Shown here piece by piece: positions 5,192-11,114 of a stretch of DNA of 64,000 nucleotides. The DNA lies in NCBI RefSeq assembly GCF_001761465.1, contig NZ_CP017479.1, forward strand, positions 1,612,001 to 1,676,000, written 5' to 3'. This DNA comes from Flavobacterium gilvum (GTDB taxonomy: Bacteria > Bacteroidota > Bacteroidia > Flavobacteriales > Flavobacteriaceae). A program made the translations under genes and the position numbers. The notes under the pieces were generated by a model. It was not told the DNA's origin. It saw only the letters and a program-made list of their open reading frames with translations, and did not search any database. Numbering within the stretch: position 1 is the stretch's first letter; every line of letters starts with the position of its first letter.

Positions 5192-5719
5192 TTATAGTTT
5201 TATTAACTGCAATTCGATATTCAAACGGACATCTTCGCCCACTAAAACACCACCGGTTTCTAGGGCTGAGTTCCAATTCAATCCCCAGTCTTTACGGTTT
5301 ATTTTCCCAGAAATATTCAATCCAGCTTTTGTATTGCCCCAAGGATCTTTCATTAATCCGCTAAACTCAGTTGGTAGAGTAACCGATTTGGTTATTCCTC
5401 TGATGCTCAAATCTCCTGTCAATTCATAATCATCGTCATTTTTTGTAAAAGAAGTGGCTTTGAAAGTCAGTTTTGGATGGTTTTCAGCATCAAAAAAGTC
5501 ACCGCTTTTCAAGTGATTATCTCTGTCAGTATTGTTTGTGCTGATAGAATTGATATCGGCAGAGAATTCAATGGTAGAATTTTCGAAGTTATCGTCCTCG
5601 GTTGTGATTGTAGTATCGTATGTTTCAAATTTACCTGAAACATTAGTAAACATCATGTGTTTTACTTTGAATCCAATTTCTGAGTGTGTTGGGTCGATTG
5701 CCCATTTTGTAGTTGCCAT
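5192..5719 (-). CDS. YceI family protein, cytoplasmic form
   Basis: YceI proteins are lipocalin-like beta barrels that bind amphiphilic molecules such as isoprenoid quinones. This 175-residue protein begins MATTKWAIDPTHSEIGFKVKH with no signal peptide, unlike the exported YceI proteins at 40-46 kb, so it should act in the cytoplasm. Family landmarks are DPTHSEIGF at the start, the DRDNHLKSGDFFD region near 65-77, and TGDLSIRGITK near 100-110. It is monocistronic, with a terminator downstream. Its upstream region carries a palindrome shared with the pirin gene, which implies joint control, probably in redox or solvent stress. The exact ligand is unknown. Confidence 0.9.
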   Translation of the reverse strand: MATTKWAIDPTHSEIGFKVKHMMFTNVSGKFETYDTTITTEDDNFENSTIEFSADINSISTNNTDRDNHLKSGDFFDAENHPKLTFKATSFTKNDDDYELTGDLSIRGITKSVTLPTEFSGLMKDPWGNTKAGLNISGKINRKDWGLNWNSALETGGVLVGEDVRLNIELQLIKL

Positions 5720-5756: not shown

Positions 5757-5764
5757 CAAAGTTA
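5757..5764 (-). promoter_or_regulatory. -7 box of yceI (TAACTTTG)
   Basis: On the minus strand this is an exact TAnnTTTG, 37 bases upstream of the ATG. There is no -33 TTG at the right distance. Instead the 5787-5802 palindrome occupies that place, which fits an activator-dependent promoter. Confidence 0.6.
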
Positions 5765-5782: not shown

Positions 5783-5814
5783 AACACTTAATCTAGATTA
5801 AGAAATTAAGTGTT
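5783..5814 (-). promoter_or_regulatory. Palindromic operator upstream of yceI
   Basis: CTTAATCTAGATTAAG (5787-5802) is a perfect 16-bp palindrome with 5-6-5 architecture. A second, wider inverted repeat overlaps it: AACACTTAAT (5783-5792) and ATTAAGTGTT (5805-5814), giving further TTAAG half-sites. The palindrome starts 22 bases from the -7 box, centring it near -41. The same site at the same distance occurs upstream of the pirin gene (8763-8778). A Crp/Fnr regulator is encoded at 8853-9428. Binding is inferred. Confidence 0.65.
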
Positions 5815-5828
5815 CAGTGTTTCGTTTT

Positions 5829-5857
5829 TTAGTATTCAGTAAAATACGGTGCTTTAT
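5829..5857. repeat. Upstream block shared with the pirin gene
   Basis: A block of about 29 bases beginning TTAGTATTCAG and containing AAATACGG is repeated at 8791-8819 with four transitions. It contains GTATT-N6-AATAC, a short inverted repeat kept in both copies. It lies 26 bases beyond the yceI operator and 12 beyond the pirin operator. Confidence 0.6.
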
Positions 5858-5925
5858 TAATCTCAGTTCTATTATTGCTATTTTTCTTTTTTGTAGGATT
5901 ATAAAAAAGCTAAATCTCTCTCTTT

Positions 5926-5993
5926 AGCCCCGATAGAAGTGGAAATCCTTGTGTGCCGGGGTTCGGCACACAAGATTGCAACGGATAGCGGGA
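5926..5993 (+). ncRNA. Structured element resembling Flavo-1 RNA
   Basis: AGCCCCGATAGAAGTGG on the left and GCAACGGATAGCGGG on the right flank a strong hairpin. AATC plus TTGTGTGCC (5944-5957, with one bulged C) pairs with GGCACACAA plus GATT (5965-5977) around GGGGTTC, and outer CCCG can pair with CGGG. No reading frame fits. From memory this layout resembles the Flavo-1 RNA class, which is widespread and multicopy in Flavobacteria; I cannot confirm it here. It could instead be a REP-like intergenic repeat. It lies in the 670-base gap between yceI and the acetyltransferase gene. Confidence 0.5.
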
Positions 5994-6107
5994 ACAATGT
6001 TTACTGAAAATGCCAAATTTTTCTGCTCCAAAAAATAATAATCGAATTCAGGTTTTTAATAATGAAAAAAGAAAAAATATATAGGTAACGCGTTGGTTGT
6101 GATTATT

Positions 6108-6256
6108 TTAACCACATAGAAACGTAGAATTTATATTGTTTAAAAAGAATTTTATAGTCATTTTACTCTTCACATAGTCAAACTATGTGTAAAATAGGCT
6201 TATTTCTATTCTTTCTTTAACGATTTGTTGCTAAATCTATGTCTCTATGTGGTTAA
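6108..6256. repeat. Long intergenic inverted repeat (CCACATAGA type)
   Basis: The 13-base arms TTAACCACATAGA (6108-6120) and TCTATGTGGTTAA (6244-6256) are perfectly complementary. A second hairpin nests inside: CACATAGT (6171-6178) and ACTATGTG (6182-6189). The arms re-use the word ACATAG. No coding frame is present. It belongs to the class of word-built hairpins found elsewhere in this window. Confidence 0.65.
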
Positions 6257-6392
6257 TTTTTTATTTAAAGCGAATTGCACTTAAAGGGTTATATGTATTA
6301 CTTATCCCTGTTAATAGAAAATAGTTCTTCAAATTTGTGTTAATTTGTGGCTATCTCATAATCTGAATCTAAAATTTGAAAATAGCTTAAAA

Positions 6393-6950
6393 ATGACAGA
6401 AAAAGAAAAAATGCTTTTGGGAGAAATTTATTTTTCCAATGATAAACAACTCGTCGAAGAGCGTGCAAAAGCCAAAAGATTACTGCACAAATTGAATGTT
6501 ACAGAATATTTGATGAACGGTAAATCCCGCGCCATTCTTCGGGAGTTACTTCCCAATTCCCATAAGCGATTGTATATAGAACCGCCTTTTCACTGTGATT
6601 ATGGATACAATATCCATTCTGGCGAAAATGTTTATTTTAATGTCAATTGCGTGGTTTTAGACACGATGAAAGTAACTATTGGTAACAATGTTTTCTTTGC
6701 GCCGGGCGTGCATATTTACACTGCAACCCATCCGCTCAATGCCATAGAAAGAAGAACAATCGAAAGTTCAAAACCTGTTTCAATTGGTGACGATTGCTGG
6801 ATTGGCGGTAACGCTGTGATTTGCCCGGGAGTCACAATTGGTTCTGGTTGTGTAATCGGTGCAGGATCTGTGGTGACTAGAGATATTCCCGAAAATTCGT
6901 TGGCAGTGGGAAATCCTGCCAAAGTAATTCGGAAACTGAATGTGGACTAA
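6393..6950 (+). CDS. Maltose/galactoside O-acetyltransferase family protein
   Basis: Transfers acetyl from acetyl-CoA to a sugar hydroxyl in the cytoplasm (Maa/LacA/NodL type). The N-terminal domain begins MTEKEKMLLGEIYFSNDKQL; the rest is a left-handed beta helix of hexapeptide repeats, including IGDDCWIGGNAVICPGVTIG and VIGAGSVVTRDIP. The catalytic His lies in YTATHPLNA. The start is set at 6393 (185 residues), because the family begins at MTEKEK and an upstream in-frame ATG at 6345 adds an unrelated extension. Its stop codon overlaps that of the convergent iron-sulfur gene. Physiological substrate unknown. Confidence 0.9.
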   Translation: MTEKEKMLLGEIYFSNDKQLVEERAKAKRLLHKLNVTEYLMNGKSRAILRELLPNSHKRLYIEPPFHCDYGYNIHSGENVYFNVNCVVLDTMKVTIGNNVFFAPGVHIYTATHPLNAIERRTIESSKPVSIGDDCWIGGNAVICPGVTIGSGCVIGAGSVVTRDIPENSLAVGNPAKVIRKLNVD

Positions 6951-7177
6951 TCCTTTTTGTTCAGATAAAAACTCAATGCTCCTGATGGACATTTGTTTAC
7001 CGTTTCAATAATTTTTTCGGTAGTTGAGTTTTCGGGCGTAATCCATGGCTGCTCTTTTGGTTTGAAAACGTCTGGATTATTGCGTACACAATTTCCCGAA
7101 TGAATGCATTTTCCTGATTGCCACACGATGGTTACTTCACCATTAGTGTATTCTTTTTTGATGTTTTTTGGATCCAT
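6947..7177 (-). CDS. YjdI-type (4Fe-4S) mono-cluster protein
   Basis: A 76-residue ferredoxin-like protein homologous to E. coli YjdI. The motif CIHSGNC (Cys24, Cys30) and the C-terminal CPSGAL (Cys63) provide three cysteines; a fourth ligand, perhaps non-Cys, is not obvious, as in E. coli YjdI. It is the last gene of a GNAT-OsmC-YjdI operon, starting two bases after the OsmC stop. In E. coli yjdI is next to yjdJ, a small acetyltransferase, so the pairing is conserved with OsmC inserted. Probable role in redox or peroxide stress; the reaction is unknown. Confidence 0.88.
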   Translation of the reverse strand: MDPKNIKKEYTNGEVTIVWQSGKCIHSGNCVRNNPDVFKPKEQPWITPENSTTEKIIETVNKCPSGALSFYLNKKD

Positions 7178-7179
7178 GG

Positions 7180-7590
7180 CTAAAATGTTGTGTTAATAAT
7201 TATGTTTCCTTTAAGTAATTTTGAAATCGGACATTTATCAGCAATGATCAGTAGTCGTTCTCTTTGTTCGGCGGTGACATCTCCGGAAAAAGTAATGTTT
7301 CTTTTTATGGTTGTAGACAATTCACCATCTACAGTTTCCTGATATAAATTTAGTGAAATATTTATTTCGGGGATTATCCATTCTTTTCTGTCGATGTACA
7401 TTCTCAGGGTAGAAAGTGTACAACTTGCCAAAGAAGCCAAAAGTGTTGAAAACGGATCTGGTCCTAAATCTTTTCCGCCTTTGTTTTCGGGTTCGTCCAT
7501 CAGTAATTTGCCATTTCGCCAAGAAATAGTACACAAGTATTTTTGTGTTCCAATGGAGCCTGTTATATCTTCGTCAAACATATTTTCCAT
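7180..7590 (-). CDS. OsmC family protein
   Basis: OsmC/Ohr proteins reduce organic hydroperoxides with two cysteines. This 136-residue protein has the family layout with GPDPFSTLLASLASCTLSTLRM (Cys57) at the core helix and DKCPISKLL (Cys119) near the end, so both reactive cysteines are present. It lies between the GNAT gene (18-base gap) and the YjdI gene (2-base gap), clearly one operon. The YhfA/OsmC subgroup without a proven substrate is also possible. Confidence 0.9.
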   Translation of the reverse strand: MENMFDEDITGSIGTQKYLCTISWRNGKLLMDEPENKGGKDLGPDPFSTLLASLASCTLSTLRMYIDRKEWIIPEINISLNLYQETVDGELSTTIKRNITFSGDVTAEQRERLLIIADKCPISKLLKGNIIINTTF

Positions 7591-7608
7591 ACACTGATTG
7601 AATAATGG

Positions 7609-7893
7609 TTATAAAACGTCTCTGAATTCTGGAGTTTTGTCAAAAACTTTTTTGGCAAATGGACAAAGCGGAATAATCTTGATATTTTTTTCTCTGGCAA
7701 ATTCTACTGCTTTGGCTACCATTTTTTTACCATAACCTTTTCCGTTGTTCCCTTCGTTTACTTCGGTGTGGTCTATGATTATTTTGTCGGGTCCGGCAAA
7801 TACAAAAGTCATTTTGGACTCTGTTTTACCGTTGACGTCTATATGAAAAAAACCTTTTCTGTCGTTTATTTCTAATTGTACTTCTTCGTTCAT
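7609..7893 (-). CDS. Small GNAT acetyltransferase, YjdJ type
   Basis: A 94-residue minimal GNAT of the yjdJ/Gtn family. The acetyl-CoA loop is NNGKGYGKKMVAKAVEFARE (about 48-67), followed by KIIPLCPFAKKVFDKTPEF, the typical tail. It is the first gene of the GNAT-OsmC-YjdI operon. The target is unknown; association with a YjdI-type protein is seen also in E. coli. No clean promoter is visible between it and the pirin gene; a long hairpin repeat fills that gap. Confidence 0.88.
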   Translation of the reverse strand: MNEEVQLEINDRKGFFHIDVNGKTESKMTFVFAGPDKIIIDHTEVNEGNNGKGYGKKMVAKAVEFAREKNIKIIPLCPFAKKVFDKTPEFRDVL

Positions 7894-7906
7894 TTTTTTT
7901 GAGTTG

Positions 7907-7978
7907 CTGAGTTACTAAGATTCTAAGTTACTAAGATTTTAAGTCTTTTCTTAGCAACTTAGAATCTTAGTAACTTAG
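7907..7978. repeat. Long hairpin of the ACTTAG octamer type
   Basis: The arms 7907-7929 and 7956-7978 pair over 23 positions, with one G-T wobble; the inner 18 are perfect (TTACTAAGATTCTAAGTT). Each arm is built from 8-base units like AACTTAGA and ATCTTAGT. The same units form a direct repeat at 57933-57972. It lies between the pirin stop and the GNAT start. A T-tract follows only on the plus strand (7983-7989). Confidence 0.75.
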
Positions 7979-7987
7979 GGACTTTTT

Positions 7988-8704
7988 TTAATATCTCATT
8001 GGAATTTCCATTAAAAGAAATTTGGCATCAGTTGTTGCTTTAATATCCAAAGTTTTAAAATCAGTGATTCCCAGACCATCACGGGTTTGTAATTCCTGAT
8101 TGTCAGCAGTTATTGTTCCTGAAATCACAAAAACATAAATACCGTTCCCTTCTTTTTTTAATTCATATTGTTTAGAAAAACCAGCCTCAAAATCGGCTAA
8201 ATGAAACCAAGCATCTTGGTGAATCCAAACGCCGGCATCATCAGGATTTGGAGATAATATTTGAGCAAAATTATTTTTCTGTTCCGCAGTGTCTAATGTG
8301 ATTTGTTGGTAACGTGGCTCAACATTTCGAGTTCTTGGAAATAACCAAATCTGAAAAAGTTTTGTTTGCTGATCCGCATTTGGGTTGAATTCACTGTGTT
8401 GGATTCCGGTACCGGCACTCATCACTTGGACATCTCCCGTTTTTATGGTTGCGGCATTTCCCATGCTGTCTTTGTGTGCCAAATCACCTTCAAGTGGAAT
8501 GGTAATAATTTCCATGTTATCGTGTGGATGTGTTCCAAAACCCATACCGGCCGCAATTGTGTCATCGTTCAAAACGCGTAAAGCTCCAAATTGAACTCTA
8601 TCCGGATTGTACCAACTGGCGAAACTAAAACTGTGATATGCGTTTAACCATCCGTGATCGGCATGTCCTCTTGTATCTGCTTTGTGTAAAACTGTAGTTG
8701 TCAT
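7988..8704 (-). CDS. Pirin family protein
   Basis: A bicupin of the pirin/YhhW group; members can act as quercetin 2,3-dioxygenases or redox-linked regulators. The N-terminal cupin has GFGTHPHDNMEIITIPLEG, with the metal-binding HPHDNME residues, and GTGIQHSEFN. The start is set at 8704 (MTTTVLHKADTRGHADHGWL, 238 residues), where family members begin; an ATG 13 codons earlier would overlap the -7 box region. It is preceded by a shared palindromic operator and a Crp/Fnr gene. Cytoplasmic. Confidence 0.92.
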   Translation of the reverse strand: MTTTVLHKADTRGHADHGWLNAYHSFSFASWYNPDRVQFGALRVLNDDTIAAGMGFGTHPHDNMEIITIPLEGDLAHKDSMGNAATIKTGDVQVMSAGTGIQHSEFNPNADQQTKLFQIWLFPRTRNVEPRYQQITLDTAEQKNNFAQILSPNPDDAGVWIHQDAWFHLADFEAGFSKQYELKKEGNGIYVFVISGTITADNQELQTRDGLGITDFKTLDIKATTDAKFLLMEIPMRY

Positions 8705-8732
8705 GATGTATATTTTTATTGATTTTGTTATA

Positions 8733-8746
8733 CAAATGTACATTTG
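8733..8746 (-). promoter_or_regulatory. -7 box of the pirin gene within a perfect palindrome
   Basis: CAAATGTACATTTG is a perfect 14-bp palindrome. Read on the minus strand, 8740-8733 is TACATTTG, matching TAnnTTTG, 29 bases before the ATG. No TTG lies at 17-23 bases; the nearest is at 13. The operator at 8763-8778 takes the -33 region. Confidence 0.55.
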
Positions 8747-8762
8747 ATATAAGCAAAAGACA

Positions 8763-8778
8763 CTTAATCTAGGTTAAG
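8763..8778 (-). promoter_or_regulatory. Palindromic operator upstream of the pirin gene
   Basis: CTTAATCTAGGTTAAG differs from the yceI operator (5787-5802) by one base. It starts 22 bases from the -7 box, exactly the distance in yceI, and is flanked by the same CA before and AAA after. The centre is near -41. It lies in the 148-base gap between the pirin gene and the Crp/Fnr gene, which is the natural candidate binder. Confidence 0.65.
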
Positions 8779-8790
8779 AAAGAAAAGTGA

Positions 8791-8819
8791 TTAGTATTCA
8801 GCGAAATACGGCACTTTAT
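8791..8819. repeat. Upstream block shared with yceI
   Basis: Begins TTAGTATTCAG and continues to AAATACGG and CTTTA, matching 5829-5857 apart from four transitions. It keeps the GTATT-N6-AATAC inverted repeat. It lies just beyond the operator, near the 3' end of the Crp/Fnr gene. Confidence 0.6.
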
Positions 8820-8852: not shown

Positions 8853-9428
8853 CTACTTTTTAAGAAGTCTACTCTTCATTTTACTAAAAAATTCTGGAGT
8901 AACTCCCATATAAGAGGCAATTTGCTTTTGGGGTACTTTCTGGATTAAATCAAGATTTTTTTTGCAGAATTTTTCAAAGCGCTCTTCGGCGGTTAAACTC
9001 AGATTATCCATTAATCGTTCTTGGTGTGCGACTAACGATTTTTCGATTAATATTCTGAAAAAACGTTCCAATTGAGGAATTTCTTTGTATAAAATTTCCT
9101 GATTTTCTTTGGATAATATAACCACTTCGGCATCCTCGATTACCTGAATAAAAAGGTTACCCGGCTTTTGCGAAAGCAAACTGTACATATCACTGATCCA
9201 CCAACCGCTACAGGCAAAACTCAAAACATGTTCGACGATATTGTCATTGATGTTGAAACTTCTCAGGACACCCGAATTGACAAAATAGGAATGTTTGCAT
9301 ATTTCTCCGGCATTAAGCAAAATAGTTTTGGCCTTATAATGTTTGATTTCGGTTTTGGACAAGATAAATTCCTGCTCTTGAGAATTGAGTGTCACATGCT
9401 GGGCAATATTTTCTAGGATTAATGCCAT
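8853..9428 (-). CDS. Crp/Fnr family transcriptional regulator
   Basis: 191 residues: a cyclic-nucleotide-binding fold (about 1-115), a dimer helix, and a C-terminal winged helix with QKQIASYMGVTPEFFSKMKSRL (about 166-187). There are only two cysteines (44, 73) and no N-terminal Cys cluster, so it is not an iron-sulfur Fnr; its ligand is unknown. Its ATG directly abuts the stop codon of the DUF6370 gene, so the two are probably translationally coupled. It lies upstream of the pirin gene with a palindromic site between them, and is the best candidate to control pirin and yceI. Confidence 0.92.
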   Translation of the reverse strand: MALILENIAQHVTLNSQEQEFILSKTEIKHYKAKTILLNAGEICKHSYFVNSGVLRSFNINDNIVEHVLSFACSGWWISDMYSLLSQKPGNLFIQVIEDAEVVILSKENQEILYKEIPQLERFFRILIEKSLVAHQERLMDNLSLTAEERFEKFCKKNLDLIQKVPQKQIASYMGVTPEFFSKMKSRLLKK

Positions 9429-9749
9429 TTATTTCTTTTTCGGAAGCAAGGTAAAAGTGATTGCTTTAAAGCGGTTGTCTACAATGGTTCCTGTAACTTC
9501 GGCTTTTCTGATGGTTTCGCAAAAACCGTCTGCGGCATGAGCATCACCGTGGTCATCAATCTTCGTCCCGTCTACGAAATAGGTTTTTCCATCAATGCGG
9601 ATTGCCAAATTACATCCTTTTCCTTTCATTCCAAATTGGCATTCGCCACAGGCAACTTCTACCGTTTGAGGTTTTAAGGACTCTTTTTTTTCTTGGGCAT
9701 TACAAAAAAAGACAGTAAGTAATAATGCAACTGATAATAGATTTTTCAT
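9429..9749 (-). CDS. Secreted Cys-rich DUF6370 family protein
   Basis: 106 residues with a signal peptide (MKNLLSVALLLTVFFCNAQ). The mature part has CGECQFGMKGKGC (Cys34, Cys37, Cys46), GDAHAADGFC with His71 and Cys77, and ITFTLLPKKK at the end. The Cys/His set could bind a metal or act in redox chemistry; function unproven. It is the first gene of a two-gene unit with the Crp/Fnr regulator, whose start follows its stop without a gap. This hints that the regulator senses something related to this periplasmic protein. Confidence 0.8.
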   Translation of the reverse strand: MKNLLSVALLLTVFFCNAQEKKESLKPQTVEVACGECQFGMKGKGCNLAIRIDGKTYFVDGTKIDDHGDAHAADGFCETIRKAEVTGTIVDNRFKAITFTLLPKKK

Positions 9750-9797
9750 TTAGGACCATTTTTTGAGAGTCCTAAGTTAAGTAATTTGATACGAATT

Positions 9798-10250: not shown

Positions 10251-11114
10251 ATGAGTAAATATCCGATTTATTCCATTCAGCGATTTAATTGTAATGATTT
10301 CGGAAGTGATTTTTATATCAATACTTTTAAAAATCACTTGGTTAATCACGGTTTTGTCGAAGAGCCACATAGACATAATTCGTATGTGTTGGTTCTTTTT
10401 ACCAATGGATCAGGTACACATGATATTGATTTTGATAGCTTCAGGATTCAGCCCGGTAGTGTGTTCTTTATGCAACCGGGACAAATTCATCATTGGGATT
10501 TGTCTGATGATATTGATGGGTTTGTTGTTTTTTATTCTCAAGAAATGTATAATCTTTATTTTAGGCAAAAGACAATTGATGGTTTTTCTTTTTATTCTTC
10601 GTTGGGGAATTCGCCCGAAATTGTTTTTGATTCTAAAGAATTAAAGACGATTGAACCTTATTTTTTCAACATACTTGAAGAATATCAAGGAAACAAATTG
10701 ATGAAACAAGACAAAATTCTGAATTTATTGGATTGTATTCATATCGAAATTGCGAGAAAATATGAAGAAAATAATGTTTTAAAAGCACATTCTTATAATG
10801 TAAAAATAAAAGAGTTTAATGCGCTTTTGGAACTGCATTTTTGGACAGAAAAAACAGCCGCGTTTTATGCTTCACAACTCCATATTACGCTAAAACATTT
10901 GAATAGAATCTGCAGTGAAATCTTAAAAAAGACCACAACACAGGTTATTGCTGGAAGGGTTATTCTAGAGGCCAAAAGAATGTTGATGGATAAAAAAAGA
11001 ACAGTCAACGAAATTGCAACAATGCTGGGTTTTGATGATTATTCTTATTTCGTGCGATTGTTTAAAAAGCATACAGCAATGACGCCGACCGCTTTTCGGT
11101 TTTCAAAGCGGTAA
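10251..11114 (+). CDS. AraC family transcriptional regulator
   Basis: 287 residues. The N-terminal cupin sensor has EEPHRHNSYVLVLFTNGSG and PGSVFFMQPGQIHHWDL, typical of AraC-type ligand pockets. The C-terminal AraC DNA-binding domain (about 190-287) ends with two helix-turn-helices, the second being TVNEIATMLGFDDYSYFVRLFKKHTAMTP. Ligand and targets unknown. It stands alone, divergent from DUF983; a -7-like TATATTCG lies at 10210-10217. Confidence 0.93.
   Translation: MSKYPIYSIQRFNCNDFGSDFYINTFKNHLVNHGFVEEPHRHNSYVLVLFTNGSGTHDIDFDSFRIQPGSVFFMQPGQIHHWDLSDDIDGFVVFYSQEMYNLYFRQKTIDGFSFYSSLGNSPEIVFDSKELKTIEPYFFNILEEYQGNKLMKQDKILNLLDCIHIEIARKYEENNVLKAHSYNVKIKEFNALLELHFWTEKTAAFYASQLHITLKHLNRICSEILKKTTTQVIAGRVILEAKRMLMDKKRTVNEIATMLGFDDYSYFVRLFKKHTAMTPTAFRFSKR

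Follow-up and report, generated by a model that had tools for sequence, protein, structure and literature searches.

Matching palindromes before yceI and the pirin operon of Flavobacterium gilvum, candidate class II operators of a neighbouring Crp/Fnr regulator

Introduction

In Flavobacterium gilvum, yceI and a pirin gene are each preceded by nearly the same palindrome, at the same distance from a promoter box, and a gene of the Crp/Fnr family lies beside the pirin gene. The question raised by this locus is whether the palindromes are operators and, if so, which protein would bind them and with what effect. The window analysed here is the whole stretch of 64,000 nucleotides (nt) from contig NZ_CP017479.1 (NCBI RefSeq assembly GCF_001761465.1, positions 1,612,001 to 1,676,000 of the forward strand), and coordinates are those of the window unless another origin is named. 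Comparison with related genomes makes it very probable that both palindromes are bound by the neighbouring Crp/Fnr protein of 191 amino acids (aa), which would act there as a class II activator of yceI and the pirin operon.

Two matching palindromes in the window

The sequence CTTAATCTAGATTAAG, located at 5787-5802 before yceI, is a perfect 16-bp palindrome of 5-6-5 architecture. A near-identical 16-bp palindrome, CTTAATCTAGGTTAAG, which reads CTTAACCTAGATTAAG on the pirin strand, is located at 8763-8778 before the pirin gene. Both genes are on the minus strand, and 22 intervening bases separate each palindrome from its TAnnTTTG (-7) box. By eye, no TTG is present at the expected -33 position of either window promoter, and the TTTTG in the pirin spacer is only 13 nt before the -7 box. 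A previous sequence-only reading of this DNA had described the palindromes, their gap to the boxes, and their presence in the place of an absent -33 TTG. The coordinates and the gap proved to be exact, the missing TTG is in agreement with that description, and matched palindromes at equal distance from the -7 boxes are confirmed as a real feature of the locus.

No other palindrome in the window has at least 7/8 complementary pairs and a location 15-30 nt before a strict TAnnTTTG, and the two match one another. In 60 Markov shuffles of the window, the average number of such palindromes was 1.4 and none of them formed a matching pair; on this ground a chance origin of the pair was set aside. When up to two mismatches were allowed, the whole genome revealed only two further places, namely 54751 (one mismatch), inside an open reading frame (ORF) resembling a TonB receptor, and 558403 (two mismatches), between recombinase-like and resolvase-like ORFs (all labels by eye). 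The reversed pattern, a control that is not a palindrome, has 13 and 9 loose matches by strand in this genome, compared with 4 and 4 for the motif; the sites are therefore distinguished by their exactness and position and not by the number of loose matches. As only two credible sites were found in this genome, the idea of a wider regulon there was set aside.

The window also contains a 29-base element, TTAGTATTCAGNNAAATACGGNNCTTTAT, at 5829-5857 and 8791-8819, upstream of the two palindromes at distances of 26 and 12 nt, respectively. No other occurrence with up to three mismatches was found in the genome, and the minus strand of the element contains the 5-6-5 inverted repeat GTATT-N6-AATAC. 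One possibility is that the element arose by copying of a promoter flank; another is that it serves as a second site.

Conservation and spacing within the genus

The palindrome was seen by eye in all of 25 upstream stretches of pirin genes, two of which are the window's own, with one mismatch in locus L022. Scored with up to two mismatches, it was present in 43 out of 43 pirin loci with an orthologue of the regulator and in 2 out of 26 without. The scoring excluded six of 49 regulator-bearing loci, which have no pirin gene in the stretch (L020, L025, L027, L028, L031, and L032), and retained L225 and L226, in which the regulator is split. Genomes G097, G145, and G197 (one mismatch each), and G020, G123, and G157 (no pirin gene in the stretch) are outside this scoring. 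The strict box follows the palindrome at 22 nt in 36 of the 43 loci and at 21 nt in three, and is missing in four. For yceI, the best 30 of 192 matched genomes, including the window's own, hold 28 exact palindromes and one with one mismatch; in 29 of these 30 loci the palindrome is exactly 22 nt from TAnnTTTG, the exception being L077, where yceI is located directly behind the pirin operon. The sequence-only reading expected the palindrome before yceI and pirin orthologues wherever the regulator is kept, and the counts of 43/43 and 29/30 uphold this expectation.

Among all fetched loci, 97 unique exact sites were found, 92 of them with a strict TAnnTTTG 21-23 nt downstream. Ninety-four oriented sites possess a strict box, at 22 nt in 90 cases and at 21 nt in four, and no further distance is represented up to 52 nt. 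Many loci had been fetched for their pirin, yceI, or motif content, and spacing was never a selection criterion. A constant phase with the core promoter, together with the replacement of the upstream element, is the arrangement of a class II promoter, and the fixed spacing supports a predicted position of the operator near -41. The genes behind the 94 boxed sites are pirin (56) and yceI (31), and in seven cases no ORF of 60 aa was found, four of these being cut pirin or yceI pieces. Further sites in the genus precede additional YceI proteins (L142, L162, L246, and L249), other pirins (L163, L247, and, by likeness, L248), a luciferase-like monooxygenase (L163), and an NAD(P)H-binding protein (L164, without a good box).

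Co-occurrence with the Crp/Fnr regulator

Orthologues of the regulator were called in 199 genomes of the genus at E < 1e-55, plus two split copies, among the matches listed. Under this scope, 138 out of the 199 genomes possess an orthologue, and the 15-mer motif is present in 129 of the 138, versus 5 of the 61 genomes without the regulator (Fisher p 1e-33). The reversed control matched more than half of the 199 genomes by eye, and the regulator-free genomes (5/61) represent the better background. At loci with a pirin gene (65-84% identical) and no regulator, the palindrome is missing in 14 out of 16, and five keep the -7 box by eye. On the pirin tree, the absence of the regulator requires ten changes, five of them forced by supported branches. 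The conserved palindrome, which has the dyad symmetry of a 14-16 bp operator, is thus linked to the regulator by comparison and represents a candidate operator.

In L225 (G154) and L226 (G122), the regulator is split across two frames beside an exact operator and pirin; these copies are either young pseudogenes or sequencing errors.

A second regulator-operator pair

In ten fetched loci, from genomes mostly lacking the window-type regulator, a paralogue (about 35-39% identical) is encoded directly upstream of pirin, and nine of these loci show yceI. The promoters beside this paralogue (type 2) hold CTTGTCCTAGTTCAATG or a near copy. The fetched loci contain 31 exact type-2 sites. A [TC]AnnTTTG box follows 18 of these, always with a gap of 21 nt (and once also at 3), and the other 13 have only other box variants. 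With the second regulator called at E < 1e-70, the exact type-2 motif was found in 24 of 29 genomes possessing it versus 1 of 170 lacking it; with one mismatch allowed, the numbers were 28/29 versus 8/170, and the reversed-pattern control matched 4 of the 199 genomes. Among genomes that possess the second regulator only, 3 out of 23 hold the first motif.

The helix VTPEFFSKMK accompanies type 1, and ISAEFLSKIR/VR accompanies type 2. A single-residue code separating the two types of regulator was rejected, as PEFLS-type helices occur by type-1 sites and one type-2 protein has ISPEFLSKVR. In a putative looser pattern, limited to few clades, helices with Glu would accompany CTTRA-like arms and helices without Glu other arms; several paralogue clusters with such helices lack any adjacent site.

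Sites beside other Crp/Fnr paralogues

Four closed genomes of the genus encode 13 to 22 Crp/Fnr paralogues each. In a first set of 18 further paralogues, eight show a palindrome that directly follows the gene or lies no more than 150 nt beyond it, and that has a -7-like box 21-22 nt further on (shuffles, 1.3%); the arms are CTTRA in seven and ATTGA in L165. One of the eight (L170, in G130) was known before the scan, and the scan recovers none of ten type-2 sites, whose arms are imperfect, so that it undercounts. The upstream side gave two matches out of 18, with gaps of 20 and 23.

A second set covered 70 of the 71 paralogues of the four closed genomes, including four type-1 orthologues. Downstream of 18 out of the 70, a perfect 5-6-5 palindrome was found with a gap of 21 (16 loci) or 22 nt (2 loci) to a -7-like box, and every other gap from 10 to 35 nt occurred at zero to three loci (shuffles, 2.1%). 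The upstream zones of the 70 paralogues showed no such peak, the largest single-gap count being five, reached at 22 on the divergent strand (three from one cluster) and at 28 for the own promoter. At 50% identity the 70 paralogues form 30 clusters, with operators in six and none by scan in 24, and the operators resemble one another inside a cluster but not from one cluster to the next. The scan of ten next-in-line genes gave four members of the CMD family, two short-chain dehydrogenases, one zinc-binding dehydrogenase, one flavodoxin-fold protein, one FMN reductase, and one metallo-beta-lactamase-fold protein. Of the 24 clusters with no adjacent site, one is formed by the window's orthologue, and in large genomes its pirin and yceI sites are kilobases away (among the matches listed). 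The site-spacing rule may generalise to other Crp/Fnr genes.

Upstream of the Crp/Fnr gene in L301, L303, and L310, all from one cluster, the divergent strand holds a palindrome ATGTT-N6-AACAT, followed after 22 nt by a TAACTCTG box; in L301, the ATGTT and AACAT arms flank another centre. This is perhaps a divergent version of the same cassette.

The regulator protein

The regulator matches PF00027 with 33.3 bits (cut-off 27.5), as expected from a cyclic-nucleotide-binding-like beta-roll domain. The AlphaFold model, based on 54 sequences, reaches a pLDDT of 93.8 and presents a Crp/Fnr fold with a C-terminal helix-turn-helix (HTH), in which helices 118-143, 166-173, and 177-189 (residue 1 being the second codon) correspond to the long dimer helix and the HTH. 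Fold matches of the model include CRP, FNR, and GlxR. Scores against the NCBIfam CRP equivalog and Fnr models were 30.9 bits (cut-off 266) and 28.6 bits (cut-off 228), respectively.

An N-terminal cysteine cluster for a 4Fe-4S centre was not found, the first cysteine being residue 44 of the translation, which is in agreement with the description of 8853-9428 as a Crp/Fnr gene without an iron-sulfur cluster in the sequence-only reading. Thiol sensing was rejected, as no cysteine occurs among the columns at least 95% conserved in 52 orthologues. No cAMP-pocket signature was seen by eye. The nearest solved relative is 3dn7, a cyclic nucleotide binding regulatory protein of Cytophaga hutchinsonii (sequence E 2.4e-35, TM-score 0.91 on the target), whose hit listings carry no function, ligand, or operator. 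Among the open-licence PMC papers listed, none described this regulator, motif, or regulon or gave a target or operator for this Crp/Fnr regulator; the single match to an exact sequence was a phage-display paper.

Proposed mechanism and alternatives

A dimer of the regulator would bind the two 16-bp palindromes, and the bound dimer would replace the missing -33 element and contact RNA polymerase at the TAnnTTTG promoter, resulting in class II activation of yceI and of the pirin-GNAT-OsmC-ferredoxin operon. From the families to which the target genes belong, our guess for the signal would be a stress of redox-active or electrophilic (quinone-like or peroxide-like) nature. The neighbouring Crp/Fnr gene had already been proposed as the regulator, and this choice is supported by the co-occurrence, by the paralogous pair at the same targets, and by other Crp/Fnr genes beside the motif outside the genus. 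The same proposal foresaw a small regulon of YceI and pirin with a one-gene regulator; both targets are indeed conserved, and the regulon needs to be widened to include the GNAT, OsmC, and 4Fe-4S genes.

Several observations weigh against this mechanism. The motif occurs without an orthologue in G074 (a one-strand match), G078, G130, G131, and G144, and nine genomes possess the regulator and no exact motif; six of the nine have versions with one or two mismatches before pirin, the others being G034, G046, and G155. G131 (exact) and G168 (one mismatch) keep the site before pirin without the regulator, both being draft genomes, with a completeness of 95% and 92%. In phylogenetically independent pairs, the motif tracks the regulator in four or five out of six and none is opposite, which gives a p of only 0.0625, so that the tree-corrected test alone is only suggestive. 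Five of the 97 unique sites have no strict box, four of them showing a variant box at 21-22 by eye, and one exact site in G022 (L161), with its box at 21, is followed by no ORF of 80 aa on that strand. The proposed signal is guesswork, as neither a conserved cysteine nor a known ligand points to it, and the evidence is comparative throughout.

The 16-mer was found in 13 of 299 genomes of the family, of which one is the window's own, one is a further member of the genus, and the other 11, outside the genus, hold 13 sites; the reversed control was also found in 13 of the 299, so that the motif number is at background and only the positions of the sites are informative there. At five of the 13 sites, a different Crp/Fnr gene (30-40% identical) ends close by, with -5 to +8 nt between its end and the site. 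In three of these cases, the gene that comes next encodes an MFS transporter, a DJ-1/PfpI protein, and an NmrA-like protein, respectively. In the fourth it encodes a protein without family label, with a DoxX-like gene behind it (by eye), and in the fifth a SnoaL-like protein, with a metallo-beta-lactamase-fold protein encoded behind it. A strict box at 21 is present at two of the five sites and a box with one mismatch at 21 at another; the other two, without a good -7 box at 21-22, count against the mechanism. Two more sites precede a YceI gene without a strict box (L243 by Pfam, L242 by likeness), and the remaining six have no Crp/Fnr or YceI neighbour. Within the genus, in G130, the same motif follows yet another Crp/Fnr gene, within -5 to +9 nt of the gene end, and precedes a CMD-family gene.

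Three other explanations were considered. It is unlikely that the regulator binds the palindromes as a repressor, to be released by its signal. Members of the Crp/Fnr family can repress, and the five lineages that keep the -7 box by eye without regulator and palindrome suggest that the promoter may work without an activator. However, the site is located upstream of the -7 box and does not overlap it, and it takes the place of the -33 element at a constant distance of 22 (or 21) nt from the box, an arrangement that an activator requires and a repressor does not.

A much smaller probability is given to another binder with the Crp/Fnr gene as a bystander, for example the AraC-type (HpaA-like) protein encoded divergently at 10251-11114, or a MarR/HxlR-type protein encoded elsewhere. 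The AraC-type gene shares the neighbourhood in the window and in several relatives, and in other phyla quinone-stress genes are frequently controlled by MarR/HxlR proteins. Nevertheless, a 5-6-5 palindrome is typical of homodimer binding, the palindrome is missing in the 14 of 16 pirin loci without a window-type Crp/Fnr gene, and a second Crp/Fnr protein accompanies the second motif at the same gene pair. Moreover, the five sites outside the genus adjoin other Crp/Fnr genes, and 18 of 70 paralogues share the geometry. Inverted repeats are common in intergenic DNA, but an RNA hairpin, a terminator, or a repeat element can practically be dismissed, as the palindromes are upstream of the -7 box and thus outside its transcript, they differ in the centre but keep a constant 22-nt phase to the box, and the 94 boxed sites precede pirin (56), yceI (31), or no ORF of 60 aa (7).

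Genes of the locus

The features of the locus are listed in Table 1. In the ORF list, the start of pirin is at 8743, upstream of the -7 box, and a start at 8704 agrees with the promoter. The gene order pirin-GNAT-OsmC-4Fe-4S is found whole or partial in many relatives. The end of the Crp/Fnr gene is 74 nt from the pirin operator. The DUF6370 gene is probably co-transcribed with the regulator, and just upstream of it, at 9750-9775, an inverted repeat TTAGGACC...GTCCTAA was seen by eye, which could be the operator of this gene pair. In G131 (L118, L223, and L244), where an exact type-1 operator precedes pirin, about 410 bases from DUF6370 to the operator contain no ORF of 90 aa.

Table 1. Features of the yceI-pirin locus in window coordinates.
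Feature	Position	Strand	Evidence and remarks
yceI, 175 aa, target gene	5192..5719	-	PF04264, 174.7 bits
yceI -7 box, TAACTTTG	5757..5764	-	22-nt gap constant across relatives
yceI operator (candidate), CTTAATCTAGATTAAG	5787..5802		22 nt before TAnnTTTG in 29/30 yceI loci, including the window's own
Divergent 4Fe-4S mono-cluster protein, likely pirin operon	6947..7177	-	PF06902; in part of the relatives' loci
OsmC-like protein, likely pirin operon	7180..7590	-	PF02566; behind pirin in part of the relatives' loci
GNAT-type acetyltransferase, second gene, likely pirin operon	7609..7893	-	PF14542; behind pirin in many relatives' loci
Pirin, first gene of target operon	7988..8704	-	PF02678 and PF17954; start placed downstream of the -7 box
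Pirin operon -7 box, TACATTTG	8733..8740	-	Constant gap across relatives
Pirin operator (candidate), CTTAATCTAGGTTAAG	8763..8778		Present in 43/43 scored pirin loci with regulator
Crp/Fnr-family regulator, 191 aa, proposed activator	8853..9428	-	PF00027; AlphaFold; Crp/Fnr fold matches
DUF6370 gene	9429..9749	-	PF19897; gapless upstream neighbour of the regulator; adjacency in part of the relatives' loci

Relation to known systems and significance

The consensus of FNR is TTGAT-N4-ATCAA, and that of CRP is TGTGA-N6-TCACA. Similar to the class II promoters of CRP and to FNR promoters in Escherichia coli, the locus combines a Crp/Fnr fold with C-terminal HTH and a 5-6-5 palindrome that replaces the upstream element at about -41. 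Unlike in those systems, the operator reads TTAAT-N4-ATTAA, the promoter is of the Bacteroidota TAnnTTTG type, the scores against the CRP and FNR models are far below the cut-offs, and the regulator lacks an N-terminal cysteine cluster.

MgxR is a regulator of Burkholderia xenovorans, which belongs to another phylum. It is encoded beside a YceI-family gene and answers methylglyoxal, so that a YceI-type gene beside a local electrophile-sensing regulator is a shared trait, whereas the operator sequence differs (PMC4349456). This parallel is a lead for an electrophile signal. The sigma-ABfr type promoters of Bacteroidota consist of a -7 TAnnTTTG and a -33 motif, and in Flavobacterium johnsoniae no -33 motif was identifiable (PMC7366714). 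The window promoters share the -7 box of this type and have the candidate operator palindrome in place of the -33 motif.

The results provide one Crp/Fnr paralogue with a candidate target set, operator, and promoter geometry, and a simple rule from which the operators and targets of some others can be predicted. They also suggest a concrete reason for the absence of the -33 element at some Bacteroidota promoters, namely that an activator would occupy its place. In a broader proposal, to which we give an even chance, the pair of the window would be one branch of a large family of cassettes of 190-aa Crp/Fnr proteins in the genus and its relatives, in which each regulator gene would directly precede its own class II operator and a target that handles quinones, peroxides, or other electrophiles. 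In such cassettes, a clade-specific operator 21-22 nt before the -7 box would replace the -33 element, recognition helix and operator would change together by clade, and reactive small molecules would be sensed without a cyclic nucleotide or an iron-sulfur cluster. If this is true, the expansion of Crp/Fnr paralogues would be a readable set of regulator-operator-target triplets.

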